This document shows, piece after piece, positions 22,665-55,141 of a stretch of 60,421 nt of DNA. Origin of the DNA: a virus; the IMG/VR virus record IMGVR_UViG_3300043787_000063, positions 1 to 60,421 of that record; one strand, written 5' to 3'. A program made the translations under genes and the position numbers. Position 1 is the stretch's first letter, and every line of letters starts with the position of its first letter. The notes beneath the pieces are model-generated. The model made no database searches. It had not been told where the DNA came from and saw nothing but the letters and a program-made list of their open reading frames with translations.

Positions 22665-22669
22665 ATAAA

Positions 22670-23551: not shown

Positions 23552-23985
23552 TGTTAATACAATTAAAAATAGCTGGTAAATCTTCTACTAAGCAAAGACC
23601 TAGATTTAATTCTCAAACTGGTCATACCTATACCCCTCCTTCAAATATAATTTCTGAGAACGATGTTAGGAGCGTTTGGCGTGAAGCTGGGGAACCAAGA
23701 TTTGAGGGTAATACCCCGTTATCATTACATATTTTTATAGATGTATTAAGGCCACAAAGTCATTATAACAGTAAAGGTATTTTAAATAAAAAGGGGAATG
23801 AACACCCTTGGCCCGATAATAAAAAGCCTGATTTAGATAATGCTGTAAAGCTCATTATGGATGCTTTAAATAGTAGAGCTTATAAAGATGATGTTCAAAT
23901 TTGTCATATAGAAGTTATGAAAATGTGGGGAGAGTGGCCCGAGACTAGAGTAACTATAAATTCAATGCTTGATGATATTCAATAA
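23551..23985 (+). CDS. rusA: RusA-like Holliday junction resolvase
   Basis: 144 aa. I take the ATG at 23551, just after the endonuclease stop, rather than an upstream in-frame start. N-terminal KIAGKSSTKQRPRF, then WPDNKKPDLDNAVKLIMDALN with the RusA metal-binding aspartates (about residues 85-105), and a terminal YKDDVQI with a third acidic cluster. It cuts four-way junctions and may replace the disrupted RuvC activity. It is part of the inserted cassette. Confidence 0.85.
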   Translation: MLIQLKIAGKSSTKQRPRFNSQTGHTYTPPSNIISENDVRSVWREAGEPRFEGNTPLSLHIFIDVLRPQSHYNSKGILNKKGNEHPWPDNKKPDLDNAVKLIMDALNSRAYKDDVQICHIEVMKMWGEWPETRVTINSMLDDIQ

Positions 23986-23987
23986 TA

Positions 23988-24230
23988 TCCCATTATCAAG
24001 CAATTAGTGCTTTAGCTTGTAAACTTAGAAAATTATTAGTTATAGAAGCTAGGGTTACATCGGCAAGAAAAGCGGCGTTGGGAAAGGGAAGTATGTCTAA
24101 GGAGGAATCATATAAAAAGATTAAAGAGATTTATCCCGGCGAAGATTGGGGCCGCATAAATAATGGTGGCGCTGACAGAAGTGATGCTCTAATACTTGCT
24201 ATGGCTGGATTACAATTAGCTGAGAGATAA
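23988..24230 (+). pseudogene. RuvC-like resolvase, C-terminal half
   Basis: The frame reads SHYQAISALACKLRKL, then ARVTSARKAALGKG, then GGADRSDALILAMAG. These are the conserved C-terminal motifs of phage RuvC-like resolvases, including the last catalytic acidic residues. There is no usable start codon (TGA stops lie just upstream), so it would only be made if spliced or read through. Together with 22434-22664 it forms a complete protein. Confidence 0.8.
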
Positions 24231-24235
24231 TTAGT

Positions 24236-24397
24236 ATGAAATATAACCCAGTTGTATATAAAGAGTTAAATAGAATTAGATGTATAAATAATGAAGAAAA
24301 GCAAATTAATGAAGCTATGAAATTATATTTAAATGATGTGGTAGATTTAGAAGAATATGAATTATTTTGCAGTGAAATAATTAAACTACTAGTATGA
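24236..24397 (+). CDS. Hypothetical protein, 53 aa
   Basis: It starts 5 bases after the resolvase remnant. Helical, acidic in its C-terminal half. No motif. Probably an ordinary small phage gene. Confidence 0.45.
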   Translation: MKYNPVVYKELNRIRCINNEEKQINEAMKLYLNDVVDLEEYELFCSEIIKLLV

Positions 24398-24407
24398 GAG
24401 TGAGGTG

Positions 24408-24449
24408 ATGCAATTGACTATCGGAGAAGTAGTAGCACCGTTGTTATAA
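24408..24449 (+). CDS. Possible 13-residue leader peptide
   Basis: GAGGTG precedes an ATG for a 13-codon frame (LTIGEVVAPLL at its end). The frame stops directly before a strong terminator hairpin. The layout fits a leader peptide with attenuation ahead of the packaging genes. Confidence 0.35.
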   Translation: MQLTIGEVVAPLL

Positions 24450-24487
24450 GGGCTCCTTGGTGCGGATTTCTGCTGAGGAGCCCTTTC
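24450..24487 (+). terminator. Intrinsic terminator / attenuator
   Basis: GGGCTCCT pairs with AGGAGCCC (8 bp, 18-base loop), followed by TTTC. It separates the recombination genes from the packaging genes. Confidence 0.65.
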
Positions 24488-24492
24488 AAATA

Positions 24493-24633
24493 ATGTATGA
24501 TGGTAAGATGAGAAGAGATAGAAAATATCCGTGGGTTAGTATAAAGGGGTCTAGGAGGTTCAAAAGAAAACCTTGGCGTTGGCGTGACTCTACTACTCGG
24601 TTAGTTAAGATTAGGAAGAAACCTTGGAAATGA
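24493..24633 (+). CDS. Very basic 46-residue protein
   Basis: It starts just after the terminator. Rich in Arg/Lys/Trp (RRFKRKPWRWRD), so probably binds nucleic acid. It overlaps the terS start (ATGA). The family is not known. Confidence 0.45.
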   Translation: MYDGKMRRDRKYPWVSIKGSRRFKRKPWRWRDSTTRLVKIRKKPWK

Positions 24634-25214
24634 GCGAAGAACAAGAAATAGAGATGGAAGAAAATGGATCTGTAAAAGGTCATAGAGAAGACTTTCCTGA
24701 ATCTATTTCTGCGCTAAATCCTGCTGATGCATCAGTTTCAAAACAACCAAAAGATTCTCGCGGTAAGAGACTTTCAGGATTCGCTCGCCAGGGCTATTGG
24801 GATGAACCTAGTAAAGATGATCCGAATATAACTAATAGAGAAGCAAAAAGTATCTGGGCGCGTAGGATGGCCGCGGAAGGTAAAATAGGTGGTGCTCGTC
24901 CAGGTTCAGGTAGACCAAGAAAACAATCAGTAGCAGAGGTAGTAGCCGACAAATCCTCCGAGAATGCTGATAAGATAGCAAAGAAGCTTTTAGATTTAGC
25001 TTTAAATCATATATCTCCTTCTATTAATTTACAAGCAGTGGATAGGTTAAATAAGTATGAACAAGATTATGAGAAAAATATGAGAGATGATGAGAAAGAG
25101 CTTCGTAAACTTTCTGGTGATTCTCTGGATGCTGCTTTAAGGGATGTCTTGGAGGAATATACTGGAGTACAATATGATATAGAAGTTAGCGAGAAAGATA
25201 TAGAAGATGTCTAA
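24630..25214 (+). CDS. terS: Terminase small subunit (putative)
   Basis: 194 aa. The ATG at 24630 is preferred over a TTG two codons earlier. The centre has a KIGGARPGSGRPRKQS motif, the usual signature of phage small terminases of this type. The rest is helical (oligomerisation) with an acidic C-terminus. It recognises phage DNA for packaging with TerL. Its position before the large terminase supports the call. Confidence 0.7.
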   Translation: MSEEQEIEMEENGSVKGHREDFPESISALNPADASVSKQPKDSRGKRLSGFARQGYWDEPSKDDPNITNREAKSIWARRMAAEGKIGGARPGSGRPRKQSVAEVVADKSSENADKIAKKLLDLALNHISPSINLQAVDRLNKYEQDYEKNMRDDEKELRKLSGDSLDAALRDVLEEYTGVQYDIEVSEKDIEDV

Positions 25215-25719: not shown

Positions 25720-28700
25720 ATGGCGGGGAAAGTTAAAGATATAAAATTAGATAGTGTAGATCTATCTAAACTAACAGATAAGGAAAAACGTGAGTTAATC
25801 CTTTCTATGCGGCGACTTGGCGGCAAAAGTGGTTCGCAAAAAAGACCTGTACCTACTACTGATGATGAGCTGTGGGTACACATTAGGGAAGAATATGGCG
25901 ATGAAGTTCCTCGCGTAGCAGTTTGTAAAGATCATTGTGCGCCTTTTGATTTTATGGCAGATTATTACTTTGAACGTGCTACAGCATTGTTGGTGATGGC
26001 TGCGCGAGAAACAGGGAAGACACGTGGAGTGTCAATTATAAATTGTGTTATTGCGGAAACAAAAAATGGTGTGGAGATTTGTGTTGCAGGGGATACCTTA
26101 ATAGACTGTCCAAGAGACCATAGACAATACCCAAACGGTATTCCAATAAATATTATAAAATCTGGGCAGCTAATATGGACATTTAATGAAGAAAATTTTA
26201 TCTTTGAATTAAAGAGAGTAAAACAAGTAAAGCTAACTCATAAAGATTGTCAGTTATATAAATTAAAGCTCGATGATGGATCTGTAATAAGAGCAACTGC
26301 TGAGCATAAATTTCTTCATAGGAATGGAGAATGGGTTAAATTATGTGATTTAAAATTTGGTGATTCTCTTATGCCTATGTATAGAGATTTTGAGCCATAT
26401 GTAAGAATAAGGCCAGATGCTACTGGTGGTGGAGAAAAAATATCTGAGTATAAAGCTGTTGCGAATTTTAAATGGGAAGATAGAAAAGGATTTCATATAG
26501 ACCACATTGATGAAATTCATGCTAATTCTAGTGAGGATAATCTACAGTTACTTACGGTTAGCGAACATGCTTCTAAGACCATGAAGGGAAGAAATGTAGG
26601 ATTTCGCAGAAAGCAGCAACAGAAGGCGCAGATGAACAGTGTAAATGACGTAAAGAGGAATAAAGAAGCTAAAGAAATATTAGAGAAATTAAAAAATATA
26701 CCAGAAGACCAGTTAACTATTCCACAGCTAGAAGCCTTAGATAGATATTATTCAACTTCTGAAAATGGAGAGATAGAATTTACTTGTAGTATATGCAGGG
26801 AAAATTTTGTTAGAAGAATGAATGGAAGAGATAGAGTGCCGCTTTGCAATTTATGTAAGACAGAGGGTAGAATATGTCCTGTTTGTAAAGAACCATATGT
26901 AGTAGAAAGATATAGTAAGAATAAAACTTGTTCTAGAAGGTGCGGGCAAATTCTAAAACACCAAATATATTCTTATAAAAATAAAAAATGTGCAAAATGC
27001 GAAAAAGAGTTTACTCCAAAAAACGGTAGCACTAAAAATTGTCCTGATTGCCAAAATAGATATTTTCAAACTTATGAGAGAAGCAGGCGTAGGGAAATAG
27101 AGCATTCACAATATTATAATCATAAAGTAGTATCAGTTGAGAAAGATTCAATAGAGGATGTATGGGATTTAGAAGTTGAAGATAACCATAACTTTGTATC
27201 TTGCGGAGTTGTTCTACATAATTGTGCCTTTGCGGAGATCGAGGCTCAAACAGAAAAATCTTATTCTTATGTAAAAGAGTTTGTATATGATTATGATAAA
27301 GATGGAAAGAAAGTTATAAAACCGGGTATACTGGGTGAGCCATTGCGAAAGATGACTCAATGGAAGAATGGGTCTAAACTTTTACTTATTGTTGCTACTC
27401 TTGGTGGAGTTAATGCACAGCATTCACAAAAGGTTTATGCTGATGAGATTGATCTTATGAAAAAGGATATTTTTTATGAGAGCAGATCAATTAGTAGTTC
27501 TAAGACTCTTAAAGATGGTACGATAGTAAAAGCTCAAGATATTGCGACTTCTACTCGCAAGTCCAATAAGGGCGTTATGCAGGAAATAATGAATGAGTGT
27601 GATAGTGCTGAAAAAAATGGTTTCGATCCTCCTTGGACTAGATATATTTTTTGTATATTTGAGGTAGCAAAGGAGAACCCAGCTTGCAGAAATGTTCCTA
27701 AAGATATAAGGAAAGCTAGACTAATTGAGTTAGGTAAAGACCCTTGTGAATTGTGTGATTGCGACAAAGTGGTCAAAGGAGAGTGGGCTGAGGGAGTTCC
27801 AAGAACTTTAGAGTCAGTATGTAAGGGTAGGCTTTTTAGATCAAGAGGTTGGATGGCGCATAATGACGTTAAGCGAAAGTTCGTTCAGAATATACCTCAA
27901 GTTTGGGTAGCGCAGCTTGAATGTAAAAGACCAATGGCAGATGGTCTTTATTTGCCAACTTGGAATAGAGAAAAGCATTGTATTCGTGGTTTTGAACCAA
28001 GACCGGAGTATGGATTAATTTGGCAAGGAATAGACTGGGGCGGCGCAGCGGCCAGTTTTGTGATTTGGATTCAAGGTCCTATGCATCAATCACTACAAGT
28101 TAATAATACTATAGGAACTAAAACTATTATTCCTCAAGGAGCTTATGTAGCTTTTAAAGAGTTATCTGAGGCTTCCATGGGTGCAACTCGTCTCGCAGAT
28201 AAAGTTGTTAGACAAGAGATTCAATATAAGAATAGATTCGGTGGAGGTTGGAGGGTAAAGGCAAGATTTGCTGATATGGCGGGGAGACAACAGCGAGAGG
28301 ACTGGAGAGAGCATAACCCTCCATTAAGAACTGTTTGGTATATCTCAAGAGATGTAGACCCTATGTTTGAATGTTTACAGGCTTTAGTTACTGATAATAT
28401 GTTTTATGTAGATGATCAAAATGCTCCTACTTTATGTGATGACTTCGAGAGTTGGAGAATGGAGAATAATAAGGAAGTGCATGACGAATCAACTCACGGA
28501 CCTTCTGCAACTAAATATTGCATGAAGAATGTAACTACTATTATGAAGAGATTTAAAAATACTACTACCCGCACGAGCTTAGCGCCGGTGGTCGTCGGCA
28601 GGGACGCGGCCCAAAATGTTCCTGGTGCTTTGGCTGCTGCTAGTGTAGGATCTGTTTCTCCCGGCGAAGCGTCCTCTGAGAATTGGCGCAGGAGTCTAGG

Positions 28701-28764
28701 CGCTCCAGCGACGCAGGGGGATTTTGAAAATAGAAGGGGAGGGGCAGAGCCGTGGAGGCCGTAA
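25720..28764 (+). CDS. terL: Terminase large subunit, interrupted by an HNH intein
   Basis: The 1014-codon gene encodes a packaging ATPase/nuclease of about 633 residues after splicing. Walker A-like AARETGKTRG is near residue 95, Walker B-like VYADEIDLM follows the intein, and the nuclease domain shows GLIWQGIDWGG and KARFADMAG. The intein is residues 121-501 and interrupts just after the Walker A region. The extein halves join as NGVEI-CAFAEIEAQT. The C-terminal 40 residues are GC-rich and disordered. Confidence 0.88.
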   Translation: MAGKVKDIKLDSVDLSKLTDKEKRELILSMRRLGGKSGSQKRPVPTTDDELWVHIREEYGDEVPRVAVCKDHCAPFDFMADYYFERATALLVMAARETGKTRGVSIINCVIAETKNGVEICVAGDTLIDCPRDHRQYPNGIPINIIKSGQLIWTFNEENFIFELKRVKQVKLTHKDCQLYKLKLDDGSVIRATAEHKFLHRNGEWVKLCDLKFGDSLMPMYRDFEPYVRIRPDATGGGEKISEYKAVANFKWEDRKGFHIDHIDEIHANSSEDNLQLLTVSEHASKTMKGRNVGFRRKQQQKAQMNSVNDVKRNKEAKEILEKLKNIPEDQLTIPQLEALDRYYSTSENGEIEFTCSICRENFVRRMNGRDRVPLCNLCKTEGRICPVCKEPYVVERYSKNKTCSRRCGQILKHQIYSYKNKKCAKCEKEFTPKNGSTKNCPDCQNRYFQTYERSRRREIEHSQYYNHKVVSVEKDSIEDVWDLEVEDNHNFVSCGVVLHNCAFAEIEAQTEKSYSYVKEFVYDYDKDGKKVIKPGILGEPLRKMTQWKNGSKLLLIVATLGGVNAQHSQKVYADEIDLMKKDIFYESRSISSSKTLKDGTIVKAQDIATSTRKSNKGVMQEIMNECDSAEKNGFDPPWTRYIFCIFEVAKENPACRNVPKDIRKARLIELGKDPCELCDCDKVVKGEWAEGVPRTLESVCKGRLFRSRGWMAHNDVKRKFVQNIPQVWVAQLECKRPMADGLYLPTWNREKHCIRGFEPRPEYGLIWQGIDWGGAAASFVIWIQGPMHQSLQVNNTIGTKTIIPQGAYVAFKELSEASMGATRLADKVVRQEIQYKNRFGGGWRVKARFADMAGRQQREDWREHNPPLRTVWYISRDVDPMFECLQALVTDNMFYVDDQNAPTLCDDFESWRMENNKEVHDESTHGPSATKYCMKNVTTIMKRFKNTTTRTSLAPVVVGRDAAQNVPGALAAASVGSVSPGEASSENWRRSLGAPATQGDFENRRGGAEPWRP
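26080..27222 (+). mobile_element. Intein in TerL, with HNH homing endonuclease
   Basis: 381 codons. It begins with the Cys of CVAGDTLIDCPRD and ends VVLHN before the extein Cys, the class 1 splicing arrangement. Inside are an HNH core (FHIDHIDEIHANSSEDNLQLLT type, about 26494-26560) and several CxxC zinc pairs. Removal by protein splicing restores the terminase. Confidence 0.9.
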
Positions 28765-32038: not shown

Positions 32039-32199
32039 GATTAGAAAAAGACCCATTTAATATTGATTTGGTTGAGGAAATGAATTTATCAGACTTACAA
32101 TTGACAGATTTTTATAATAATTTAAAAGATATTAAAAGAAAAAGGAGAGAAGATGGCGACAGAAGTAAAGAAGAAAAAATCACAGATAGCGAAGTATGA
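32035..32199 (+). CDS. Hypothetical protein, 54 aa
   Basis: ATGA start. It runs 47 bases into the nrdJ gene in another frame. Charged and helical. The overlap with a well-supported gene makes it less certain. Confidence 0.35.
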   Translation: MRLEKDPFNIDLVEEMNLSDLQLTDFYNNLKDIKRKRREDGDRSKEEKITDSEV

Positions 32200-42423: not shown

Positions 42424-43044
42424 ATGTCTACTCTACTTATAGGAAATGAATTAACAACTGAACCACATAAAGGTGTTCATAGCGTTAAAAAGCAAGCGGG
42501 GTGGTTATTTAAAGCTATAGCCACTGGTACTATGGAAGAAATAGCTTTACGTACTGATTCTGAAGCTAATACTGGTATAACATCATTATATTTAGGTATA
42601 TTTGCTGCGTCAGGCGGTAAGCCAGGTAATTTATTAGGGTCAGCGAAATATACAGGGTCTTATCCTGTGGCTTCTAGTGCGTGGGTAGCGGTTACTGGTT
42701 TAAATGTTTCTATAATAGATGAAACCGAATATTATTTTGGAATTTGCGCAAGCGCGGGAGGTGGAATACATTTAGCTTTTGAACATGCTGCTGGAGAAGG
42801 GACGCAGTTATGGGAAACAGGGGCTATTTATGAAAAATTAGAAACAGTAGAAGCTGCTAAATGGATTACCGAAGGAAAATTGGGCCCAAACCGTATGTAT
42901 GGTAAAGGGACGGTTCTTTCAGGGTCGCTTGGAGTATTTAATTCCCCTACTTCTATATCACCTAAAAAGTTATATAAGCCATTTCCTACTTCTCAAGAAC
43001 AAAAAATAAAACAAGAACAGAAGTTATTATCTATGATAATATAA
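42424..43044 (+). CDS. Receptor-binding-like protein, 206 aa
   Basis: Beta-rich with repeated small-residue turns (GGKPGNLLGSAKYTGS). The C-terminal 20 residues are basic and helical. Last gene of the fibre set before the GC-rich island. It could be a host-range determinant. Confidence 0.55.
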   Translation: MSTLLIGNELTTEPHKGVHSVKKQAGWLFKAIATGTMEEIALRTDSEANTGITSLYLGIFAASGGKPGNLLGSAKYTGSYPVASSAWVAVTGLNVSIIDETEYYFGICASAGGGIHLAFEHAAGEGTQLWETGAIYEKLETVEAAKWITEGKLGPNRMYGKGTVLSGSLGVFNSPTSISPKKLYKPFPTSQEQKIKQEQKLLSMII

Positions 43045-43073
43045 ACACACATATCCCATGAAAGGGGGTAGAC

Positions 43074-43409
43074 ATGAGTACGCAACAAACCGCACAAGGT
43101 ACGGACGAGGATCTAGCTTTTCTCTGGGCCGACTCCACGCGCCTGGAGAAGTTCCGAGATCAGCTCAATAGCCCTGAGCTGAGTCGCCAAGAGTGGGGCG
43201 AGTTGAGCGATGATGCTATCCGGGTTCTGATTGGTGAAGCCCGACTCCGAGCCAGATCTGCTCTCGGTCGTGAGCCGAGCGACCTCTCTACGGGCCTCTT
43301 TAAGAACCTCTTGCAGCTCTATTTCACGATCTGGCATCTTCCCTCCCTTGAATGGCTTGCTCGACAGACTCCCAAGACGATGGAGCGCCAGTCAAGTAGC
43401 GTTTCCTAA
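43074..43409 (+). CDS. Hypothetical GC-rich gene, 111 aa
   Basis: AAAGGGGGTAGAC precedes the ATG. Helical, with no known domain. On the other strand a 74-residue coiled-coil frame (43113-43337), also with GGGAGGGAAG before its start, is equally plausible. One of the two is probably real. Codon use is GC-rich, unlike the phage genes to the left. Confidence 0.4.
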   Translation: MSTQQTAQGTDEDLAFLWADSTRLEKFRDQLNSPELSRQEWGELSDDAIRVLIGEARLRARSALGREPSDLSTGLFKNLLQLYFTIWHLPSLEWLARQTPKTMERQSSSVS

Positions 43410-43428
43410 AGATTCAGCAAAGACAAAG

Positions 43429-44110
43429 CTATCCCCCACAAGGGGGTAGATTGTGCTATGCTGTGCTCATGCCGCCAGTCGATCGCAACGCACCTAAACG
43501 AGCATCTTTCTCGGAGTCTTCATATTCATTGATGGAGTTTCTAAAAGACTATCCAGACGATGCAACTTGTTTGGACTTTCTTTGGCACGAGAGATACGCG
43601 CCAGATGGGCATATAGCACATTGCCCAAAGTGCGATAAGGATAGGAAGTTTCATAAGGTCAAAGAAAGACCAGCTTGGGATTGCGACTCTTGCGGATATC
43701 ACTTACATCCTTTGGTGGGAACTATCTTCGAGAAGTCATCTACGTCTTTGCACCTCTGGTTTTATGCGATCTTTCTTATGACTAGCACTCGTTGTGGCAC
43801 ATCTGCTAAGCAGCTTGAGCGAGAGCTTGGGGTTACATATAAGACTGCATGGAGAATCTTCAACAAGATTCGCAATGAGTTGATGACTGATGAGGATACT
43901 TTGCTTTCAGGGCAGGTAGAGGCCGATGAGACCTCTGTTGAGGGAAAGCCGCGCAAACCACACGGTCAAACACCATTCGCTCAGCCTGGGGTAAACCGGC
44001 GCTCTGAGGCTGCCAAGTTGCGCCATGCTAGGAGACTCTAGCGAAACTATACTTTCCTCAGTATCTAAGCTAAATCTCCAGCCTGTATACTAGCACAGAT
44101 ACCCCACTTT
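43429..44110 (+). mobile_element. IS1595-like insertion sequence relic
   Basis: A truncated transposase (43469-44041) lies between imperfect inverted ends. GGGGGTAGATTGTGCTATG is at the left (about 43442-43460). The right end, read on the other strand, is GTGGGGTATCTGTGCTAGTA (about 44085-44104). The transposase is about two thirds of normal length, so the element is probably not active. Confidence 0.55.
43469..44041 (+). pseudogene. IS1595-family transposase, truncated
   Basis: 190 residues from the ATG at 43469. The zinc ribbon (CPKC...CDSCGYHLHPLVGTIFEKS, about 45-75) and a helix-turn-helix (KTAWRIFNKIR) are visible. A first catalytic acidic site EADET is near residue 155. The rest of the DDE domain is missing, compared with about 300 residues normally. 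Its product may be inactive. Confidence 0.75.
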
Positions 44111-44237
44111 GGAGAAGATCCTACCCCATGAGACATCTTGTCTACATTCGGGCCGATTTCTGTGGCGGAACGACTGGCGAAAGTGCCCACAGCAAAGTTT
44201 AAAGCCTCGAATCTCCGCTAGACTGAGCGCACCTTCA
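44042..44237. other. Gene-free GC-rich stretch
   Basis: No gene seen. It includes the right end of the IS1595-like relic. Confidence 0.4.
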
Positions 44238-44310
44238 AGGGCAAAGGCCGGAAGATTGGTGGAGCCAGCTCCCCCAACTGCGCCTTTGCTCTCGGTTCGG
44301 TTGGGGGAGC
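44238..44310 (+). repeat. Conserved hairpin element, copy 1
   Basis: AGGGCAAAGGCCGGAAGATT, then GGTGGAGCC, then a perfect 11-bp stem GCTCCCCCAAC/GTTGGGGGAGC with a 21-base loop (44279-44299). The same layout occurs at 46769 and 47271. It lies 15 bases before the tRNA-Ala. It could be a structured RNA or terminator. Confidence 0.6.
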
Positions 44311-44324
44311 GACCCACCACTGAC

Positions 44325-44419
44325 GCGCCTGTAGCTCAGTGGTCAACGGTTCCCAGTGGGGGCCAAAGAGCAGCGGTCTTGCACACCGCAGGTCGGGGGT
44401 TCGATTCCCTCCAGGCGCA
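44325..44419 (+). tRNA. tRNA-Ala (TGC) with expanded D-loop
   Basis: Acceptor GCGCCTG/CAGGCGC, D-stem GCTC/GAGC, anticodon stem GCGGT/ACCGC with loop CTTGCAC, and T-loop TTCGATT all fit. The D-loop is about 30 bases instead of 8-11. It contains an extra hairpin GGTTCCC-AGT-GGGGGCC (44348-44364). The tRNA may be non-functional or need processing. Confidence 0.75.
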
Positions 44420-44470
44420 TCTACTGGAGTATAGCGCAGACAATCGTGCGTTAACACCGACAGATGTCTG

Positions 44471-44710
44471 TTAGCGAACCTTCTGCGCTGGAATCCCCTC
44501 GAACAGCCGCCCTGCAGGTACCTGAAGCGCTTCGGCCAAGATCACGATGGTTGGGAAGCGTGGCGCTCGATTGGCCCGCTCCATCTTGCTGATGGCCGTC
44601 GTATGCAGCTTCGAGTGGTAGGAGAGGTCCTCCTGCGACCAGCCACGCTCAGCGCGGAGGGCCTTCAAGTTTGTAGCAAAGCGCTCAAGGGGGCTCACGC
44701 CCCAAAGCAT
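44471..44710 (-). CDS. XRE-family helix-turn-helix regulator
   Basis: 79 residues from the ATG at 44710 (a longer frame reaches 44749; a GTG at 44698 is also possible). FATNLKALRAERGWSQEDLS and then TTAISKMERANRAPRFPTI form a Cro/CI-type helix-turn-helix. GC-rich codons and the sequence type suggest bacterial, possibly actinobacterial, origin. It may regulate genes in the island. Confidence 0.75.
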   Translation of the reverse strand: MLWGVSPLERFATNLKALRAERGWSQEDLSYHSKLHTTAISKMERANRAPRFPTIVILAEALQVPAGRLFEGIPAQKVR

Positions 44711-44928
44711 CCGCCGCCTAACCCAAGAAGCCAAGAGACATATCGTCAAGTTTTGTGTATGCTACGCGCGTTCAATATGCAGGATGGATTCGTGCGGAAG
44801 ATCACAAACTACTATGCAGGAGGTACTTGTATGGGCACTACGCCAATAATCATTGGTGCGCTGATGCTGATTTTTGAGGGGCCTCCGGCCCTGCCTGCTG
44901 CTGTGGCGCTGGGGGTGATCTGGAGCTG

Positions 44929-45294
44929 ATGCGACTACGACCTCGTTGGCGCAAGATGACGTGGGTTGTGATTTTGTGGTGTGTCTTGATCCTTGCTTGG
45001 GCAATTGGTGGAGCAATCAGTGGCGCAAATCACAATGCTCAGACATGTACTCATTCAGCATTTTTGGGCACCAAGAGCTGCGAAGAAGCCAGTAATGCAG
45101 GAACAGGAATTGGTATAGCTCTGATCTTATTTATCGGATTCATTGGCTTCGTATTCTTTTCTTTGATTTGGTTTATGACTCGACCAAAGCAACGCGATTG
45201 TCCAGTTTGCGGAAATTCTGTTAAGAAGGGTATTACAACTTGCGCAAAGTGTAATCACGACTTTGCAAAAGCTGCTTATGCTGTAGAAGGTTAA
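44929..45294 (+). CDS. Membrane protein with C-terminal zinc ribbon, 121 aa
   Basis: Two transmembrane helices (about residues 11-29 and 60-83) and a zinc ribbon CPVCGNSVKKGITTCAKC (about 91-108). The type is seen in Gram-positive bacteria. It is rightward and overlaps the transposase tail-to-tail by 4 bases. It looks host-derived. Confidence 0.6.
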   Translation: MRLRPRWRKMTWVVILWCVLILAWAIGGAISGANHNAQTCTHSAFLGTKSCEEASNAGTGIGIALILFIGFIGFVFFSLIWFMTRPKQRDCPVCGNSVKKGITTCAKCNHDFAKAAYAVEG

Positions 45295-46394
45295 GCTTTA
45301 ATTAGTGCACAACTCAGCTTCGTCAAGATCGTGAGATCGACATGGAGCTTTACTTTTGCTATTCCTCTAACTCTAAGAGGGAGCATTGCCCACTGGTGCT
45401 TCAGTCGCCCGAATGCCCGCTCGACTGAGGCCCGACCTCGATACAGCTTCTTCCAACGATCAGTGGAACGTGGAATGAGTGTATGAAGTCGATCAGCCGA
45501 GACCCACTTAGATTTCGTGCCACATTCCCCTGTCGGACATCTCCACTTCGTTGCCTTGCGTTTGTAGTCGGCTCCGGCAAACTGCCACTCGCCATGCTCA
45601 CAGCACGGCACAGCATCCTTGCCGCGCTTCACCTCGGGCGTTTTCCGCAGAGGAATGACTGGCGCGATATTCCACTCAGAAAGGTCTTCGTAGACGCGAT
45701 TATTGTCGTACCCCTTATCGAGCGCACACGTCTCAGGATTGATTCCCTGCTGGTGTAGAACATCGAGCAGTGGAGCGACTGAGAGTGTTTCATGGGCTCG
45801 CGCAGTCTCCACCTGCCACGCAAGGGGAAGGTCTGTCTTAGAACAAACGGCCATGTGCAGCCGATATCCGTAGAAGCCTCCGCCCTTTCTCGTACTGACG
45901 GCGGAGCGGTGGCCCCAAGAGGCATCAGGATCGGAATACTTCTCTCGTTCTCTGCCACCCTTGCTCACGAACCGCTGCCCGTTGGCATAAGCAGGGATGT
46001 CAGATGCATCTATGGAAATATTCTTTCCAAACTCGGGATTCTTTTTATTAAGAGATGAAATAGTGTTTTTGATACTTTTTTCTAAAAGATGATCATTCTC
46101 TTTGAGCTTCTTTGTAAATCTATAACAAGCAAATACAGAAGGAATATCTCCATTTGGAGAAATAACTTTTGAAAGAGCTTCATGTTCATTTACTAAAGAA
46201 ACTATTTTAGTCCATGTGGAAATAGAATAAATAGTCTTGGCTAAAGCCATCCCAATCATGCTGCGAATGGGATAACCAGGGCGACCCGTCCAGCGGGTGT
46301 CGTCAAGGTCCGCAATGAGGACTTTGATCTGGGGCGAGTCGAGAAGTGAAGCAAGCTCGGAAACGGCCGAGCATGATAGCGTGTCTCGGGTCAT
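45291..46394 (-). CDS. DDE transposase, IS5/IS1182-like
   Basis: 367 residues. Catalytic sites are SIDASD (about 146), ALDKGYDNNRVYED (about 228) and the Glu in RGRASVERAFGRLK (about 325-335). The frame is complete. No terminal inverted repeats are visible, as the 3' end overlaps the neighbour and the 5' flank is a hairpin. The middle (about 46020-46260) is markedly AT-rich while both ends are GC-rich. Confidence 0.8.
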   Translation of the reverse strand: MTRDTLSCSAVSELASLLDSPQIKVLIADLDDTRWTGRPGYPIRSMIGMALAKTIYSISTWTKIVSLVNEHEALSKVISPNGDIPSVFACYRFTKKLKENDHLLEKSIKNTISSLNKKNPEFGKNISIDASDIPAYANGQRFVSKGGREREKYSDPDASWGHRSAVSTRKGGGFYGYRLHMAVCSKTDLPLAWQVETARAHETLSVAPLLDVLHQQGINPETCALDKGYDNNRVYEDLSEWNIAPVIPLRKTPEVKRGKDAVPCCEHGEWQFAGADYKRKATKWRCPTGECGTKSKWVSADRLHTLIPRSTDRWKKLYRGRASVERAFGRLKHQWAMLPLRVRGIAKVKLHVDLTILTKLSCALIKA

Positions 46395-46417
46395 TGGAGG
46401 TCAGATCTCCTGTGGCC

Positions 46418-46450
46418 TGACCCCCGGGCGTTGGCGCGTCGCGGGGGTCA
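46418..46450. terminator. GC-rich hairpin
   Basis: TGACCCCCG pairs with CGGGGGTCA (9 bp, 15-base loop), followed by TTTATATA on the right. It could terminate rightward transcription. Confidence 0.45.
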
Positions 46451-46514
46451 TTTATATAGTTCGAGGGAAGCTATCAGGAGCTTCGGACGGAACTTTCTGG
46501 CCGATAGAATAAGC

Positions 46515-46550
46515 GAGCCCCGACCGGAGGATCAGTCCGAATCGGGGCTC
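46515..46550 (+). repeat. Hairpin immediately before a tRNA-like gene
   Basis: GAGCCCCGA/TCGGGGCTC (9 bp, 18-base loop), ending one base before the tRNA-like sequence. This parallels the hairpin before tRNA-Ala. Confidence 0.5.
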
Positions 46551-46551
46551 A

Positions 46552-46625
46552 GCAGCGGTAGCTCAGTTGGTAGAGCGGGGTCCGTGGAAAGGCTCGCGTC
46601 GCAGGTTCGAGTCCTGCCCGCTGCA
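46552..46625 (+). tRNA. tRNA-like gene with eight-base anticodon loop
   Basis: Acceptor GCAGCGG/CCGCTGC, D-stem GCTC/GAGC, T-stem GCAGG/CCTGC with TTCGAGT. The anticodon stem GGGTC/GGCTC encloses CGTGGAAA, eight bases. If U33 is at 46585 the anticodon would be GGA (Ser), but the variable arm is short, unlike serine tRNAs. Identity uncertain. Confidence 0.5.
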
Positions 46626-47134
46626 AGTATTTCTACTGGAGTTGTAGCACAGCCACATTAGATTATTTGTGCTGATTGCTACTAGTGTTGGGTGGCCTGC
46701 CTTCTTAGTTAGCGCTCGCTAAGTTGTTTCGTTGGTGGTTTCTGCGGCTATCCTCTTGATTGTCTTCCAGGGCATAGGCCAGGAGACTGGAGCCGACGGC
46801 AGTCCCTCCAGGGTCTTGATCTAGCCGGATCTCCCTGGAGGGACACTCCTTAGCTCCTCGCTTCGCTCGGAGTTTCGTCGTTCCTGGTTGGTTATCATGG
46901 GCGCGCCAGCTCCTGATTCACGAGGTTGCCTACGAGACATATGCGGGAAGCTCGCCCGGCCTGACCACACCGCGCTCCCCTCGCCTCGCTGACCGGCGCG
47001 CCCCGAACTCGCCACTGGGGGCGTTGTACGTTAAGTTTGTGCTCATTGTCACGATCTAGTTTCGTAGGCACTTTCGTAGATCCCTCAGTAGGGCATCTCA
47101 AAATCCCTGAGATGCTCGACAAGGGAGCTAGAAA
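46626..47134. other. Non-coding GC-rich stretch of the island
   Basis: No convincing gene. It holds hairpin element copy 2 (46769-46844) and the inverted repeat GCATCTCA/TGAGATGC (about 47091-47114). Frames on the minus strand (46821-47185) have no protein-like sequence. Confidence 0.45.
46769..46844 (+). repeat. Conserved hairpin element, copy 2
   Basis: AGGGCATAGGCCAGGAGACT, then GGAGCCGACG, then a perfect 12-bp stem GTCCCTCCAGGG/CCCTGGAGGGAC with a 19-base loop. Same order as copies 1 and 3. Confidence 0.6.
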
Positions 47135-47230
47135 ATGCCAGGAGTTGATCGTCGCCCCACTCTTGCCGTTCCTCTGGGACGACATGCGCTAGGCCCAGAT
47201 CAGGCGCAGGGGAAGAACCCGGAAGTTTAA
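47135..47230 (+). CDS. Possible 31-residue Pro/Arg-rich peptide
   Basis: AAGGGAG lies 8 bases before the ATG. GC-rich frame with Pro, Arg and Gly. No family, short, so low confidence. Confidence 0.3.
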   Translation: MPGVDRRPTLAVPLGRHALGPDQAQGKNPEV

Positions 47231-47270
47231 ATGATCGAATCATGGTTGGTATGCTTGCAGCCTTCCTAAC

Positions 47271-47340
47271 AGGGCACAGGCCGGGAAGTGGAGCCGACGC
47301 TCCCCTGGCCTGGGGGCTGCCATTCCTTGGGCCAGGGGAG
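47271..47340 (+). repeat. Conserved hairpin element, copy 3
   Basis: AGGGCACAGGCCGGGAAGTG, then GAGCCGACG, then a perfect 11-bp stem CTCCCCTGGCC/GGCCAGGGGAG with a 19-base loop. GGCTTTCT follows, which makes this copy most like a terminator. It sits at the convergence of rightward and leftward genes. Confidence 0.6.
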
Positions 47341-47354
47341 GGCTTTCTATTGAC

Positions 47355-47525
47355 TTAGTTAGTGCCGGAAATAATTTTAGCTTTAACCTTGTTTCCTGGA
47401 GTACTGTGTCTTTCAGTACATTTTAATAAAGCACTATCTGCTTGATCTTTAGTATAAACAGTTGTATATATTATTGAAGTATAATTCTTTTCATATACAA
47501 CTAATAATTGCTCGTTAGTAGGCAT
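47355..47525 (-). CDS. Hypothetical protein, 56 aa
   Basis: First gene of the leftward block at its 3' end. AT-rich codons again, unlike the island. No motif is recognised. Confidence 0.45.
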   Translation of the reverse strand: MPTNEQLLVVYEKNYTSIIYTTVYTKDQADSALLKCTERHSTPGNKVKAKIISGTN

Positions 47526-47610
47526 CTAATAATATTTCCTTTTTCTAAATAAAAGTCCCTACACTCCCGCAGAACTTCACTTGACCATTAGGCAAATATA
47601 TCAGATTGGA

Positions 47611-48144
47611 TCAGCCTTCGTTAGGATTAACCGGAGTAGGAGTTTCTGCTGAAACCGGAGGAGCTTCACTCGGCGGCGTTTCTGCCGGCGGCGTAGCAGG
47701 CGCTGCAGGCGCTGGTACGAGTCCCTTAGCTTTTTCTACAATAGGAGCAAGGGATTCCTGCACTTTTTGAATTGCGGCCAATTCAGAATTTTTTGCTGTT
47801 AATTCTGCTGTATCTGCGCCAACCTTTGCAATATTATTGTTTAGTTCAGTTTCCTTTGTAGCGAGAGAAGTCTGAAGAGAAGTAATCTCAGTTGCAAGCT
47901 GAGGCACAACTTCGGCCAAAGTAGTCTCCTCAACTCCAAGCTGTTCTGCTAATGTAGCCATTTTTGTAAACCTTTCGATTAGTATTTCTTCTAGTTTTTC
48001 TAGTCTATTTTGTATATTTAAAAATGATTTAGTTTCTAAATTAAAAGAACTTAATTCTCTTTGAAATAATAAATTAAATTGCCTTTCAACATAAAATTGA
48101 AATTCTTCTCCTGGATGTCTATATACATCTCCTGAATCACTCAT
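47611..48144 (-). CDS. Coiled-coil protein with Pro/Ala tail, 177 aa
   Basis: A long helical coiled coil (about residues 20-135) followed by a Pro/Ala/Glu-rich tail. It overlaps the next gene by 4 bases. Possibly a scaffold or structural accessory. The C-terminal 40 residues are GC-rich. Confidence 0.5.
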   Translation of the reverse strand: MSDSGDVYRHPGEEFQFYVERQFNLLFQRELSSFNLETKSFLNIQNRLEKLEEILIERFTKMATLAEQLGVEETTLAEVVPQLATEITSLQTSLATKETELNNNIAKVGADTAELTAKNSELAAIQKVQESLAPIVEKAKGLVPAPAAPATPPAETPPSEAPPVSAETPTPVNPNEG

Positions 48145-49617: not shown

Positions 49618-49845
49618 CTATTGCGCCAAATTTCTGCGCGGATGAAGTTCTTTGATACTATTTTTATAGTATTCTAATATAGACTTATTCCTATTTAAAT
49701 TTCTTTCACTTAATATTATTTGTTTCTTCATAAATTTTATCATATCTCGATCTACCTGGATTATACGAAGTCTTTCTTTCCTATATAATTCATCATCAGG
49801 ATAAATCTTTTTAAGTTGCTTTTCTCTTTTAGATTCTTTAGTCAT
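49618..49845 (-). CDS. Basic helical protein, 75 aa
   Basis: The ATG at 49845 gives a charged helical protein (MTKESKREKQLKK...). A longer frame to 49884 overlaps lysS. It ends in the GC motif NLAQ. Possibly a small DNA- or RNA-binding protein. Confidence 0.5.
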   Translation of the reverse strand: MTKESKREKQLKKIYPDDELYRKERLRIIQVDRDMIKFMKKQIILSERNLNRNKSILEYYKNSIKELHPRRNLAQ

Positions 49846-49864
49846 CGGCAGAAATTTGGCGCAA
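49621..49864. repeat. Inverted pair of the GC-clamped motif
   Basis: TTGCGCCAAATTTCTGC at 49621-49637 recurs inverted at 49848-49864 (GCAGAAATTTGGCGCAA), enclosing the small helical gene. The two 17-base copies are identical. Confidence 0.6.
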
Positions 49865-51244
49865 GGTAGGAAACATAATAACATTTCTTATATTAGTCTT
49901 ACCAGTTAACAACATTATTAATCTATCTATACCAATTCCTACACCAGACCAAGGTAACGCTCCCATTTCTAGTGCTTCTATATAGTTTTTATCATAGGGG
50001 TCATATTCCTGTCTATCAGATATAGAACCTTCAGATAAAGAATGAATTTGTTTTTCATCAAAAGATTTTGCATTATTTTCTGATTCCTTTAGGCGCTTTT
50101 CCTGCTCATGAGGATCATTTAAATCGCTAGCTCCAGAAGCAATCTCTATGTCATTTATATATAGCTCCCATGCTTCTGCATATTCTATTTTACTTGGAAT
50201 AACATTTCCACCTATGCCGGTTTGTTTTTGTAATTCTTTTTGACGTTTCTTAAGATTGTCAATTGACTTTGAAATAATCTTTCTACTTAGCGGCCAATCG
50301 GAAGATAATAAATCACGATCAAACTTTAGTTTATTTCTGTGTGTAAACCACCCTGGAATAAATCTCTCTTCTAAATATCTTATTAAGTTAACGGTGAATG
50401 ATAACATATCATTAGAAGTACTACAAGACTCGAATATCTCTAAGTTAGTAAACTCGGGATTATGTTCTGGAGAAATTCCCTCATTACGAAAGCATCTACT
50501 AAAGCTGTAAACTCTGTCAAATCCTCCAACCAAAGCTCTCTTGAGATATAACTCTGATGAGATTGATAAGAAAAAGTCTTGGCCCAAGGAATTGTGCCTG
50601 GTTTCAAACGGCCTTGCAGTAGCACCGCCATATATCGGCTGGAGTACGGGACATTCAATCTCAACGAAGTCTTTTTCATTTAAATACTTCCTTATCTCAA
50701 ATATTATTTCTGCTCTGGTCTTAAACAGCGCACGAGAATCGGCGGAGGAAAGTAAATCTCTCTCCCGATGACGGTACTTCTCCTCTGGATTTTGTAGACC
50801 ATGATGCTTATCTGGTGGCTCAATTAAACACTTAGCTAATAAGGTCCAATCAGAAATCTTAAATAATGGTTCTCCGCGCGGATTTTGCGCCAAAGTTCCT
50901 TCTACTCCAATTATATCTCCTAGATCACATTCTAATATTCTATTCCATCTATTCTCATCTGTAAAGGTGTTTCTGTCATCATCTGGTCTTTTAGCATGTA
51001 ACTGAATTTCTCCAGTAGAATCCATTAAATTGAAAAATATATTTTGTCCGTGATTTCTACACGACATAATGCGACCGGCAATTTTGAAAGATTTTTCGGT
51101 TAATGGACTATTTAACTCTTTTCTAAGTTTTGGAGCAAAATTAGTCAATACCTTTTTTATTGAAATTCGGCCCGGAAAATCTCTCGGATAGACTTCTATA
51201 TTTGACTCTCTTAATTTTTCAAGCTTTTCAAGTCTAGAATTCAT
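49838..51244 (-). CDS. lysS: Lysyl-tRNA synthetase, class II
   Basis: 468 residues. An N-terminal OB anticodon-binding domain (AGRIMSCRNHGQNIFFNLMD) is followed by the catalytic core with motif 1, motif 2 (FRNEGISPEHNPEFTNLEIFE) and motif 3 (GVGIGIDRLIMLL, near 440). It charges tRNA-Lys. It is slightly shorter than bacterial LysS (about 500), with the middle part after motif 2 reorganised. Phage-encoded aminoacyl-tRNA synthetases are rare. No tRNA-Lys is seen in the window. Confidence 0.92.
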   Translation of the reverse strand: MNSRLEKLEKLRESNIEVYPRDFPGRISIKKVLTNFAPKLRKELNSPLTEKSFKIAGRIMSCRNHGQNIFFNLMDSTGEIQLHAKRPDDDRNTFTDENRWNRILECDLGDIIGVEGTLAQNPRGEPLFKISDWTLLAKCLIEPPDKHHGLQNPEEKYRHRERDLLSSADSRALFKTRAEIIFEIRKYLNEKDFVEIECPVLQPIYGGATARPFETRHNSLGQDFFLSISSELYLKRALVGGFDRVYSFSRCFRNEGISPEHNPEFTNLEIFESCSTSNDMLSFTVNLIRYLEERFIPGWFTHRNKLKFDRDLLSSDWPLSRKIISKSIDNLKKRQKELQKQTGIGGNVIPSKIEYAEAWELYINDIEIASGASDLNDPHEQEKRLKESENNAKSFDEKQIHSLSEGSISDRQEYDPYDKNYIEALEMGALPWSGVGIGIDRLIMLLTGKTNIRNVIMFPTLRQISADD

Positions 51245-51517
51245 TTATATATTGCCCATTTCTCCATAATTTTGTATAGCGGCAACTAACTCATCATCTG
51301 TCATTGTATAGAAATACTCTTTATTATATTCATTTTCTATTACTCGGCGCAAAAGTTGGCCAAGAGTAAGATTAGGATTCTCTATCCATAATCCTCTTAA
51401 TTCATATAAAATAAGACCAATTCGTAATGGATCGCTAGGATTTTCTGATATTTCTTTTGGTGAAATCATATTGCCATATTTACAATCTGGTTTTGAAAGT
51501 TTTATCCTGTTAGCCAC
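51245..51517 (-). CDS. Conserved small phage protein, 90 aa
   Basis: The GTG at 51517 overlaps the HNH-like gene; an ATG at 51469 is an alternative start (74 aa). A segment LYELRGLWIENPNLTLGQLLRRV is like a conserved small phage protein family of unknown function. Confidence 0.5.
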   Translation of the reverse strand: MANRIKLSKPDCKYGNMISPKEISENPSDPLRIGLILYELRGLWIENPNLTLGQLLRRVIENEYNKEYFYTMTDDELVAAIQNYGEMGNI

Positions 51518-51789
51518 GGATATCCACGCTTTCCTAAATAAAGATGGTCTGGTTTTACGCAGGCAGAAACGGCGCACGATTGTTTTACTAGAAATCCTTT
51601 TGGTACATAACCTTTTCCTGCTAGTTCCCATGCTACTACTGGGGCAGATAAACTTTTATTTCCTGCGCGAAATCTTCCTCTGCCAGTACCTTTATCGATT
51701 GTTCCAGTCCAATAAAAGCATCTCTGAGTTTTTTGAATATAAGATTCAAATTTCTCTCTATATTTTTCTAATTCTTCAAGTTTAGTCAT
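51502..51789 (-). CDS. Degenerate HNH-like protein, 95 aa
   Basis: It resembles HNH_3 domains (CFYWTGT...GRFRAGN...VAWELAGK), then KQSCAVSACVKPDHLYL where the first catalytic His is replaced. It is probably catalytically impaired, or only DNA-binding. Confidence 0.6.
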   Translation of the reverse strand: MTKLEELEKYREKFESYIQKTQRCFYWTGTIDKGTGRGRFRAGNKSLSAPVVAWELAGKGYVPKGFLVKQSCAVSACVKPDHLYLGKRGYPWLTG

Positions 51790-51896: not shown

Positions 51897-52604
51897 CTAT
51901 TTTACTTTCATATATCCCAGAGCCTGCAACGTGGGCTCGGCTTCTCCCCAAAGTCTGTTCAGGGAGCTACGCGGCAACACATCACATTTGGGATGAGCGC
52001 GCAGGAACTGGTCGAGGGCCTTGGCGAGAACCTCGGCGTGCGCTTTGGCCTCGTCTCGTTCCTGCCTGAAACGGGTGGACTCTTTCTTGTAGACCTCTCC
52101 CCACATGGCGCGACTCTCATCACGGGTCATCGGTCGATCGCCCGCCGGCTCGTGCTCCCGCTCGGTGTCCCGCACGACCGGCCCCGTGGCTGGCAGGTCG
52201 CCTCGATCCGCCGTGAGATCCCTATCGCGATCGCGCAGATCGATAACGGTCAACCTCTCGCCGCATTCGCACTCCTGCCATCCCTCGGGGCGCATATCCT
52301 CCGCCAGTTCAGCCGAGAAGCAGCCGGGGCACTGCATCCACAGCTTGCGCCTAGTCGGGTTACTCGCCGTACGCCTCACCTGGTCGTTTTCAAGCTCCTC
52401 AATCTTGGCCCGCTGGGCATCCGTAAGTAGCTCCTCTACCTCACGGGCGACGAGAGCGGTATTGATGCAAGCACGAAAAGCGCTTTTGACCCCCGCTCCG
52501 ACCTCGGCCCACTTGCCAAGTGGAGTTAGTAGTTGGTGGTCGTGCAGCCGTTCGTAAAGAGCGGCGGTCATTGCCTCGCGCTCCTCGACTGGTATCTTAC
52601 ACAT
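51897..52604 (-). CDS. GC-rich hypothetical protein with zinc site, 235 aa
   Basis: Codons are strongly GC-rich against the surrounding AT-rich DNA. A CPGC...CECGE zinc site is near residue 95-115, followed by a charged disordered part and a C-terminal helical region. It may have been gained recently from a GC-rich phage or host. Confidence 0.6.
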   Translation of the reverse strand: MCKIPVEEREAMTAALYERLHDHQLLTPLGKWAEVGAGVKSAFRACINTALVAREVEELLTDAQRAKIEELENDQVRRTASNPTRRKLWMQCPGCFSAELAEDMRPEGWQECECGERLTVIDLRDRDRDLTADRGDLPATGPVVRDTEREHEPAGDRPMTRDESRAMWGEVYKKESTRFRQERDEAKAHAEVLAKALDQFLRAHPKCDVLPRSSLNRLWGEAEPTLQALGYMKVK

Positions 52605-52719: not shown

Positions 52720-52969
52720 TATTTTCTCCTATAGCAGACTCTAAAATATTTGCGGGAATAGTAAAGGAATACTCTGGTCGTTTTTCTGCCGAAGCATCAG
52801 AAATATAGATTACTTTATAAAATCCATCTTTTATATCAGCAGCAGAATTTGGCGGAAAGTAATCTTCAATAAAATACTTATCTTTATTATTACCAATAGT
52901 AATAGGAGTACCACGGCTAGTAAATGCTTCTATAGACGACAATTGTAATATTTGTCCTACTAAGTTCAT
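52712..52969 (-). CDS. Hypothetical protein, 85 aa
   Basis: I take the ATG at 52969, just at the FtsK-like stop; an upstream start would lie inside the FtsK gene. Beta-rich, with a GC-rich motif near 52840. Unknown. Confidence 0.45.
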   Translation of the reverse strand: MNLVGQILQLSSIEAFTSRGTPITIGNNKDKYFIEDYFPPNSAADIKDGFYKVIYISDASAEKRPEYSFTIPANILESAIGENNE

Positions 52970-53739
52970 TATGCCGCCAATAATTGTGGAGTTTGATTCT
53001 TCCAAAAATCTACTATGGTCGAGATTTCGCCGGAAGTAATAAGAGGAGATTGAAATCGTACAGGTTCCATTCCCTGATTTGAAAATAAAGCATCTCCACG
53101 GCCAATTAGCGCACCTGCTCCATTTTTATTAAGAATAATACGAGAGTCAAGTTCAGAAGAAGTAGAAAGAGCTATTCTTGTCGGAAGATTACACTTTAGT
53201 ATTCCAGTTATAACTTCTCTTCTTGGTGACTGTGTTGCTAAAATTAAGTGGATTCCGCACGCCCTTCCCTTTTGACCAATTCTTACTAGAGATTCCTCAA
53301 CTTGGTTCTTTGAAAGCATCATAAGATCGGCAATCTCGTCACATACAACAACGATATAAGGAAGTTTATGAAATTTACTATTAAATTCATCTATATTTTT
53401 TACTTTATACTTCTGTAGAAGTCTATAACGATCCTCCATCATATTTGCAATAGCTTTCAATGCATCAATTGCTTCCCATGAATCAGTTATACAATCAGAA
53501 AGAAGATTAGGAATACCATCAAAAGCTGGAAGCTCAACCATCTTAGAATCGATAGTAAGAAACATTAACTCATTAGGAGTAGTCTTCATTAATAATGAGG
53601 TTATCATGCTCAAGAGAAGCACAGACTTTCCTGAGCCAGTTTGACCAGCAACTAGCACATGAGGAGCTTCTTTAAGATTCATAGAAAGTATATTATTGTT
53701 GGTATCAATTCCTAGTGGAATTTTTAATATATTAGTCAT
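52969..53739 (-). CDS. FtsK/SpoIIIE-like DNA translocase motor domain
   Basis: 256 residues, only the RecA-like motor. Walker A is VAGQTGSGKSV (about residue 30-40), Walker B is VVVCDEIADLM near 130, then ILATQSPRREVITG. The start IPLGIDTNNNILSMNLKEAPH is exactly where a normal FtsK passes from alpha to motor domain. No membrane part and no gamma domain. The matching alpha domain is a separate gene upstream (54318-54671). It probably moves DNA. Confidence 0.88.
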   Translation of the reverse strand: MTNILKIPLGIDTNNNILSMNLKEAPHVLVAGQTGSGKSVLLLSMITSLLMKTTPNELMFLTIDSKMVELPAFDGIPNLLSDCITDSWEAIDALKAIANMMEDRYRLLQKYKVKNIDEFNSKFHKLPYIVVVCDEIADLMMLSKNQVEESLVRIGQKGRACGIHLILATQSPRREVITGILKCNLPTRIALSTSSELDSRIILNKNGAGALIGRGDALFSNQGMEPVRFQSPLITSGEISTIVDFWKNQTPQLLAA

Positions 53740-53971
53740 CGTTGTCTTTTTCTATATGATTAAAATATGCTTTTATGGCAGCTCTTATAGCAATAGGGCT
53801 ATATCCGTTGGGCGGAATTGGTCCCGAATTAGGAGGTCTTTCAAAACAGCATGATATTGCATAAGCTGCTCCGGCTTCGTTTATAGCATCATCACTATAT
53901 AGTAAATCTTCATTAATAGGCTCCCATCTAGAATCTTTTCTATTAAAATAACACAGAGAAATTTTAGCCAT
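53732..53971 (-). CDS. Hypothetical protein, 79 aa
   Basis: It lies between the two FtsK-like genes and overlaps the motor start by 8 bases. Contains CCF and a Pro-rich segment. It could be a linker or partner. Unknown. Confidence 0.5.
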   Translation of the reverse strand: MAKISLCYFNRKDSRWEPINEDLLYSDDAINEAGAAYAISCCFERPPNSGPIPPNGYSPIAIRAAIKAYFNHIEKDNDD

Positions 53972-53973
53972 TA

Positions 53974-54321
53974 TTATAATATATCTCTAACATTGTGAAT
54001 TGGACATTTAATGGTATATCCATTTTGCATGCATAAACAACCTTCAGATTTCATTTCATCAAGAACTTTTATAATCTTTTCGATCTTTGCTTGTGGACTT
54101 AATTCTTTTTCTTGATGATCCCTAATTGGTGACAGAAATATATCGCGGTGGGCATTATCTTATGTTTCATCAATTATAAATTGCTCAAAGTAAATTTGTC
54201 TTGCATAATGTTTAGCTCCAATTTTAGTTAGAGCATATCCATCAAAGCTAGCAGCACCCTTAAATCTATGATAGATTTCATATTTCATAAATTTAATCTT
54301 TCTTATATAATAAATTTTCAT
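53974..54321 (-). pseudogene. Small gene interrupted by one in-frame stop
   Basis: The frame from 54321 or 54288 reads to TAA at 54160-54162, then continues open for about 61 more codons to a stop at 53974. The second part (DNAHRDIFLSPIRDHQEK..., ending CPIHNVRDIL) looks like coding sequence. So it is one gene with a nonsense codon, or two tiny genes. Confidence 0.5.
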
Positions 54322-54671
54322 AATATATCACCTAAATAGATCGTTCGTCTATCTTTTCGAGGAACAGTTATCTTAACGAATTTAGTACCGGGCTCAGGAG
54401 CATGAATTGTTAGGGACATAGCGCCAGTCTCTAGTTGTAGGTCCTTTTCTAGCCAGGGTAAATCCCGTGCTTTCACGCCCGCCGAAGGAATGAAAAAATA
54501 GCTGATGACCTGAGGGCCAAGAATAAAATCCTCCAAATTCAGGCGGCTTCTCAGCGCGTCGGAGACCTCTGATATCAGATCCCCCTCCCGTGCTGCCTGT
54601 TCGTGCTCTTCTGGCGAGTCTAGATTAGTAGATTTATTTAATAAATTAATGTCAGGAAGAATATATGTCAT
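54318..54671 (-). CDS. FtsK-like alpha domain protein
   Basis: 117 residues. GPQVISYFFIPSAGVKARDL, then LEKDLQLETGAM, and IHAPEPGTKFVKITVPRKDR match the alpha domain that stands before the FtsK motor. It ends at the point where the motor would begin. The protein thus supplies the alpha part in trans. GC-rich patches differ from the gene around. Confidence 0.7.
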   Translation of the reverse strand: MTYILPDINLLNKSTNLDSPEEHEQAAREGDLISEVSDALRSRLNLEDFILGPQVISYFFIPSAGVKARDLPWLEKDLQLETGAMSLTIHAPEPGTKFVKITVPRKDRRTIYLGDIL

Positions 54672-54786: not shown

Positions 54787-54972
54787 TTAATAAAATTTAG
54801 TTGGTCTTATAATAGTTATCTTACCACAAGCAGGACATTCATGTTCTAATACTGTTCCTGGTCTAATTACAATATTCCTTGGAGGTTCATGCTCTCTGTG
54901 TATACAAGGTTTTAGTTTTACTAACGGGCCATATTTTCTGCTGGTAGGATCTTTTATTATTCTAATTGGCAT
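54787..54972 (-). CDS. Zinc-binding hypothetical protein, 61 aa
   Basis: C-terminal CPACG and earlier CIH may bind zinc. Basic. Unknown function. Confidence 0.5.
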   Translation of the reverse strand: MPIRIIKDPTSRKYGPLVKLKPCIHREHEPPRNIVIRPGTVLEHECPACGKITIIRPTKFY

Positions 54973-55141
54973 TTTCTAAATTTTCAATAAGAGATTTTAA
55001 AGTGGGATAAGGTTCATAAAAAATATTCTCGCCAGCATGAGAAGCAAACCATTCATTTGAAGATTTACAATATATAGTCTTTGTTTTATCATACGATAGA
55101 TAAAACCCTTTTTGTATCTTTATAAGAGGCCTAATTTTCAT
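54962..55141 (-). CDS. Hypothetical protein, 59 aa
   Basis: It overlaps the neighbours by a few bases. Rich in Tyr/Phe/Lys. No motif. Confidence 0.45.
   Translation of the reverse strand: MKIRPLIKIQKGFYLSYDKTKTIYCKSSNEWFASHAGENIFYEPYPTLKSLIENLENAN

Follow-up and report, generated by a model that had tools for sequence, protein, structure and literature searches.

A phage FtsK with its alpha domain and its motor on two separate genes, divided at the inter-domain hinge

The DNA considered here, called the window below, is the whole of a 60,421-base linear virus record (IMGVR_UViG_3300043787_000063), probably a fragment of an uncultured tailed phage. It carries an FtsK whose alpha domain and RecA-like motor, or beta domain, are encoded by two separate genes (Table 1); the usual FtsK/SpoIIIE state, in which one polypeptide holds both domains, is not what is found. 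The account we favor, and consider likely, is gene fission at the hinge between alpha and beta, with the two halves most likely coming together non-covalently as the usual double-ring translocase on phage DNA. Current models of FtsK give a central part to the rocking of beta against alpha about a linker within each subunit, with alpha acting as a second grip (PMC9410874). A natural motor cut at this hinge, found beside one-piece sisters, is a ready-made test of the need for a covalent hinge, and it shows that a phage FtsK can be pared to alpha and beta and still be kept. A literature search with little reach into subscription journals turned up no earlier description of an FtsK split between alpha and beta.

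Table 1. Features of the window that bear on the divided FtsK
Feature	Position	Strand	Basis or remark
Conserved upstream neighbor, 59 aa, synteny marker	54962..55141	-	In G001 and G002, homologues sit immediately upstream of alpha
Stand-alone FtsK alpha domain, 117 aa	54318..54671	-	PF17854, AlphaFold2 model
ORF53, 53 aa, small gene between the halves	54160..54321	-	Start overlaps alpha stop (ATGA); phage-like codon usage
Open stretch of ~61 codons lacking a usual start codon, ending ...MKSEGCLCMQNGYTIKCPIHNVRDIL	53977..54159	-	Translation
ORF79, 79 aa, small gene between the halves	53732..53971	-	Overlaps motor start; phage-like codon usage
FtsK beta (RecA-like ATPase motor), 256 aa, without N-terminal or gamma part	52969..53739	-	PF01580, model
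Small HNH-like downstream ORF, 95 aa, synteny marker	51502..51789	-	Homologues near FtsK in G001, G002, and G003
Terminase large subunit (TerL) with intein, separate packaging motor	25720..28764	+	Similarity to G001 TerL, Intein_splicing
Portal	29037-31820		Window gene

The placing of an FtsK alpha domain and a motor on two genes, the core of the original prediction, was borne out by profile searches, which matched both domains. PF17854 (FtsK_alpha) matches the shorter ORF at 6.6e-14 (52.4 bits; cut-off 22.9) over 100 of its 101 model positions (1-100). This match begins at residue 5 of the protein, and the N-terminal membrane domain is absent from the ORF. The AlphaFold2 model of alpha alone (pLDDT 79.5) has FtsK as its first match in the PDB and superposes on residues 315-427 of Pseudomonas aeruginosa FtsK (VIA Z 15.6, 112 residues), where it stops.

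The motor ORF matches PF01580 (FtsK_SpoIIIE) at 4.1e-49 from model position 17 and is 42-44% identical to Escherichia coli and P. aeruginosa FtsK in structural alignments. Modeled alone (AlphaFold2, pLDDT 82.4, with residues 193-214 poor), it finds the FtsK motor 2ius at 4e-28 in Foldseek, and FtsK is again the first PDB match. The catalytic motifs are intact, namely Walker A (GQTGSGKS, with K38), Walker B (VVVCDEIAD, with D134 and E135), and an arginine finger (R159), and these four residues are invariant across 19 aligned sequences. We take R159 to be the counterpart of Arg620 of P. aeruginosa FtsK, provided that the Walker A lysine there is residue 472. Published numbering gives Arg620 as the arginine finger and Arg548 as the exchange arginine (PMC9410874); as a check, this numbering pairs Arg548 with an arginine of 2iuu in a phmmer alignment. 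The exchange arginine is a lysine in the window motor and in three relatives (G001-G003, below), and the loop II arginine (Arg632) is Ser171, with arginines two and three residues further on, a change that weighs against the favored account but is also seen in the undivided protein of G001.

The cut falls cleanly between the domains. In phmmer alignments against the PDB, the alpha ORF runs to the end of the alpha domain (2iuu chain position 182), and the motor is aligned from position 195, so only about a dozen linker residues part the two in a one-chain FtsK, and alpha does end where a motor would start. This linker is treated as a flexible hinge (PMC9410874). The ORFs lie 578 nt apart, and each frame of the gap holds 7-20 stops, which precludes a read-through fusion of the halves. 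The two predicted small reading frames do occupy the gap, and the open stretch listed between them is a possible, though uncertain, third small gene with a negative codon score. ORF53 has no convincing match in family searches, and ORF79 has no homologue among the phages searched, nor in G001-G003.

Four relatives of 91-95 kb, all virus contigs, were found through DNA polymerase and terminase searches. Their identity to the window is 77% (G001), 66% (G002), and 57% (G003) in the polymerase and 49% (G207) in the terminase. A single-chain alpha-beta FtsK is present in G001, the closest relative (385 aa), and in the more distant G003 (374 aa) and G207 (352 aa). The original prediction advised looking for the same pair in related phages; the split recurs in G002, a syntenic contig of 91 kb in which an alpha protein of 118 aa and a motor of 261 aa are parted at the homologous junction. 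Between the halves of G002 lie ORFs of 146 and 69 aa that are unrelated to the small ORFs of the window.

The surroundings of the locus are conserved as well. The 59-aa upstream gene is kept in the window, G001, and G002, and the small HNH-like gene downstream in these three and G003. Further downstream, a 128-aa gene and a lysyl-tRNA-synthetase-like gene are common to the window, G001, and G002, while the synthetase of G003 sits elsewhere in its contig. In G001, the downstream genes are at the opposite contig end, and its map would appear to be circularly permuted. Because the flanking genes are conserved, the split arose in place.

With two split loci at hand, the chance that an intron or a frameshift restores an ordinary one-piece FtsK after transcription can be weighed. 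The inserts are alike in length (566 nt in G002), and introns interrupt capsid and tail genes in mycobacteriophages of cluster J, also FtsK carriers (PMC3706429). Against this, the two inserts share no detectable sequence similarity, neither has an Rfam match to a group I or group II intron (weak snoRNA-type matches, far below gathering scores, were disregarded), stops fill every frame, and the insert ORFs share a few bases with alpha and with the motor. Joining by read-through, frameshift, or intron was rejected on these grounds and is very improbable. An artefact of assembly or sequencing is less probable still. Both split loci are known from single metagenomic contigs and from assembled sequence alone, but an artefact would have had to place several hundred foreign coding bases at one and the same junction twice, in contigs that are independent of each other and whose flanks are conserved. 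The original prediction had taken continuous genes in related phages as a sign of sequencing error; such genes do exist, but the error they were to reveal does not follow, given that the split recurs with a different insert of several hundred bases.

Beyond these relatives, all 80 bacterial loci examined are fused, and an alpha scan of one bacterial phylum was positive in 193 of 199 genomes, with no ORF shorter than 381 aa among the matches listed. Other viral FtsK proteins from the motor scan are each encoded by one ORF, 338 aa or longer, and most have an N-terminal part in which the model used recognized no alpha. Single FtsK proteins run against viral contigs gave no match, and the last alpha scan recovered only G001 and G002 again. 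In Staphylococcus phage UPMK_1 (L126, 138479-143811), an unannotated 317-aa ORF matches FtsK alpha and no motor lies within the 5.3 kb; this ORF is perhaps a frameshift or host sequence.

The gamma and N-terminal membrane domains are missing in some members of the FtsK family, the membrane domain also in phage ones. The window pair likewise has neither, as predicted; PF09397 has no match in the window or in any of the four relatives, although divergent gamma forms could escape it. The prediction tied this absence to the split. The fused relatives lack the same parts, however, so their loss is ancestral and not due to the division.

How often the split arose depends on the trees. In the DNA polymerase tree, the window joins the fused G001, and a grouping of the window with G002 is rejected (p-AU 5.8e-7). 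The FtsK alpha+beta tree also places the window with G001 (support 94/90), with a single-split clade not rejected (p-AU 0.067); TerL does not discriminate (p-AU 0.13). Since both the phage backbone and FtsK trees put the window beside a fused sister, either the hinge was cut on two occasions, or it was cut once and a refusion or replacement also took place; the split possibly arose twice at the same place. A single origin is disfavored by the polymerase tree and is not rejected by the FtsK tree; in that case, the fused gene of G001 may be a later refusion or replacement. The motors of the window and G002 both begin M-x-N-I-L-x-I-P-L-G. For the family at large, the fused form would be the ancestral state, because all outgroups are fused.

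Between the window and G001, pN is 0.33 for alpha and 0.27 for the motor, with pS saturated (>0.73), which indicates purifying selection on both halves. The end branches of the split copies are longer than those of the fused sister, at 0.80 and 0.87 vs 0.46 for alpha and 0.49 and 0.41 vs 0.29 for the motor. This somewhat faster divergence would also fit a loosening or partial loss of function, as in a decaying FtsK whose gene broke, into which small genes moved, and whose pieces linger without a working motor. The poor fit of alpha codon usage to this phage points the same way. Yet both halves are intact and under purifying selection with their catalytic residues kept, and G002 has the same arrangement with neither half decayed. 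The GC content of the alpha gene is also unusual (0.44 vs 0.35), but the fused gene of G001 has the same contrast (alpha part 0.48, motor part 0.39), so the odd composition of alpha predates the split. Decay is quite unlikely on this evidence, and a recent foreign origin of the alpha gene, considered from its higher GC, was rejected on the shared contrast.

The layout of the locus suggests joint expression of the halves, because the ORFs overlap, alpha and ORF53 by 4 nt and ORF79 and the motor by 8 nt. Such junctions would be those of translationally coupled genes in one tight operon. Separate genes equally permit separate dosage, and small genes lie between the halves in both split phages, as might be expected if the halves work apart, with beta forming an ATPase ring alone or with another partner and alpha serving on its own as a regulator or a clamp on DNA, possibly one that disturbs the FtsK of the host. 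Each of the two split phages, however, keeps alpha and motor at a single locus, the FtsK literature examined describes no independent role for alpha, and the scans made found no other clear stand-alone alpha. Independent work of the halves is thus unlikely.

Reassembly of the halves is the reading preferred here. A minimal alpha-beta FtsK of a tailed-phage lineage would have been split by fission at the inter-domain hinge, and alpha and the beta ATPase would now be made from one cluster of overlapping genes. The halves most likely reassemble non-covalently, an alpha ring stacked on a beta ring, and the stacked rings would act as a pump for double-stranded phage DNA, on which alpha gives a second grip. 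Taken further, and more tentatively, the pair may be a double-stranded DNA pump in which force crosses the ring-ring interface without a hinge and the rings can be dosed or swapped separately, with the split having perhaps arisen twice; we put this somewhat below an even chance.

By its domains, of which alpha is specific to the family, and by its fold, the window pair belongs to the FtsK/SpoIIIE family; what sets it apart is that it consists of two chains. It has both domains, the catalytic residues, and the fold in common with the bacterial proteins (2ius, 2iuu, 6t8b), which are single chains extended by a membrane part, a linker, and a gamma domain. The FtsK of mycobacteriophage cluster J (Omegavirus), such as the 442-aa Baka gp205, is likewise phage-borne, without a membrane part, and set among many small genes, but it is one chain with a divergent, gamma-like C-terminal part. 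The fused proteins of G001, G003, and G207 are homologous, also without gamma and membrane parts and, in G001 and G003, with conserved flanks; they differ in being one chain. A two-gene precedent is the ESX-1 pair Rv3870/Rv3871 (EccCa1/EccCb1), an FtsK/SpoIIIE-family ATPase made as two interacting proteins (PMC3227618). It is divided between ATPase modules, is membrane-bound, and serves protein secretion, unlike the alpha/beta split of the window.

As for what the motor does, a packaging role had been suggested and was rejected: the halves match PF17854 and PF01580, and a separate TerL is present. The lineage carries the standard tailed-phage set of terminase, portal, major head protein, and Dit, and since the window encodes a terminase and a portal of its own, the FtsK pair serves another step. 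The authors of the cluster J study presume that FtsK translocates along phage DNA, its role being unclear (PMC3706429). This presumption and the separate TerL point to a putative DNA-handling role around late replication, in which the motor probably handles replicated phage DNA, by clearing, moving, or separating it, before packaging by the ordinary terminase alongside. Plasmid-like maintenance, also proposed originally, found no support in a search for tyrosine recombinases; none, as a Xer-type partner, was seen in the window, G001, G002, or G003. In G207 (L147:1950-5047), a tyrosine integrase and an excisionase-like HTH protein are encoded close to the fused FtsK, with a few small genes between, and the cluster J FtsK is likewise close to a recombination directionality factor.

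Several other features of these phages deserve mention. The window TerL contains an intein with an HNH endonuclease (residues ~120-501, Intein_splicing 1.1e-22) that is not in the TerL of G001 or G002; on both sides of the insert, it matches the G001 copy at 65-70%, and the G001 copy in turn matches the phrog_2 TerL. In G003, the TerL has a gap of ~870 nt, and the DNA polymerase (21132-25181, minus strand) is broken by ~830 nt, possibly an intein or intron, between residues 792 and 794 of the window homologue. A class II (B12-dependent) ribonucleotide reductase (window 32153-35155, plus strand) is also in G003 and was not found in G001 or G002. The phage has 37% GC, with high-GC islands (0.46-0.61) at ~43000-48000, where a DDE transposase (45291-46394) is encoded along with two tRNAs, and at 51897-52604, where there is a 235-aa ORF with no homologues found. 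The lysyl-tRNA-synthetase-like gene (49838-51244, minus strand; tRNA-synt_2 7e-64) is kept across the lineage at 41-59% and is accompanied in the window by several tRNA genes.
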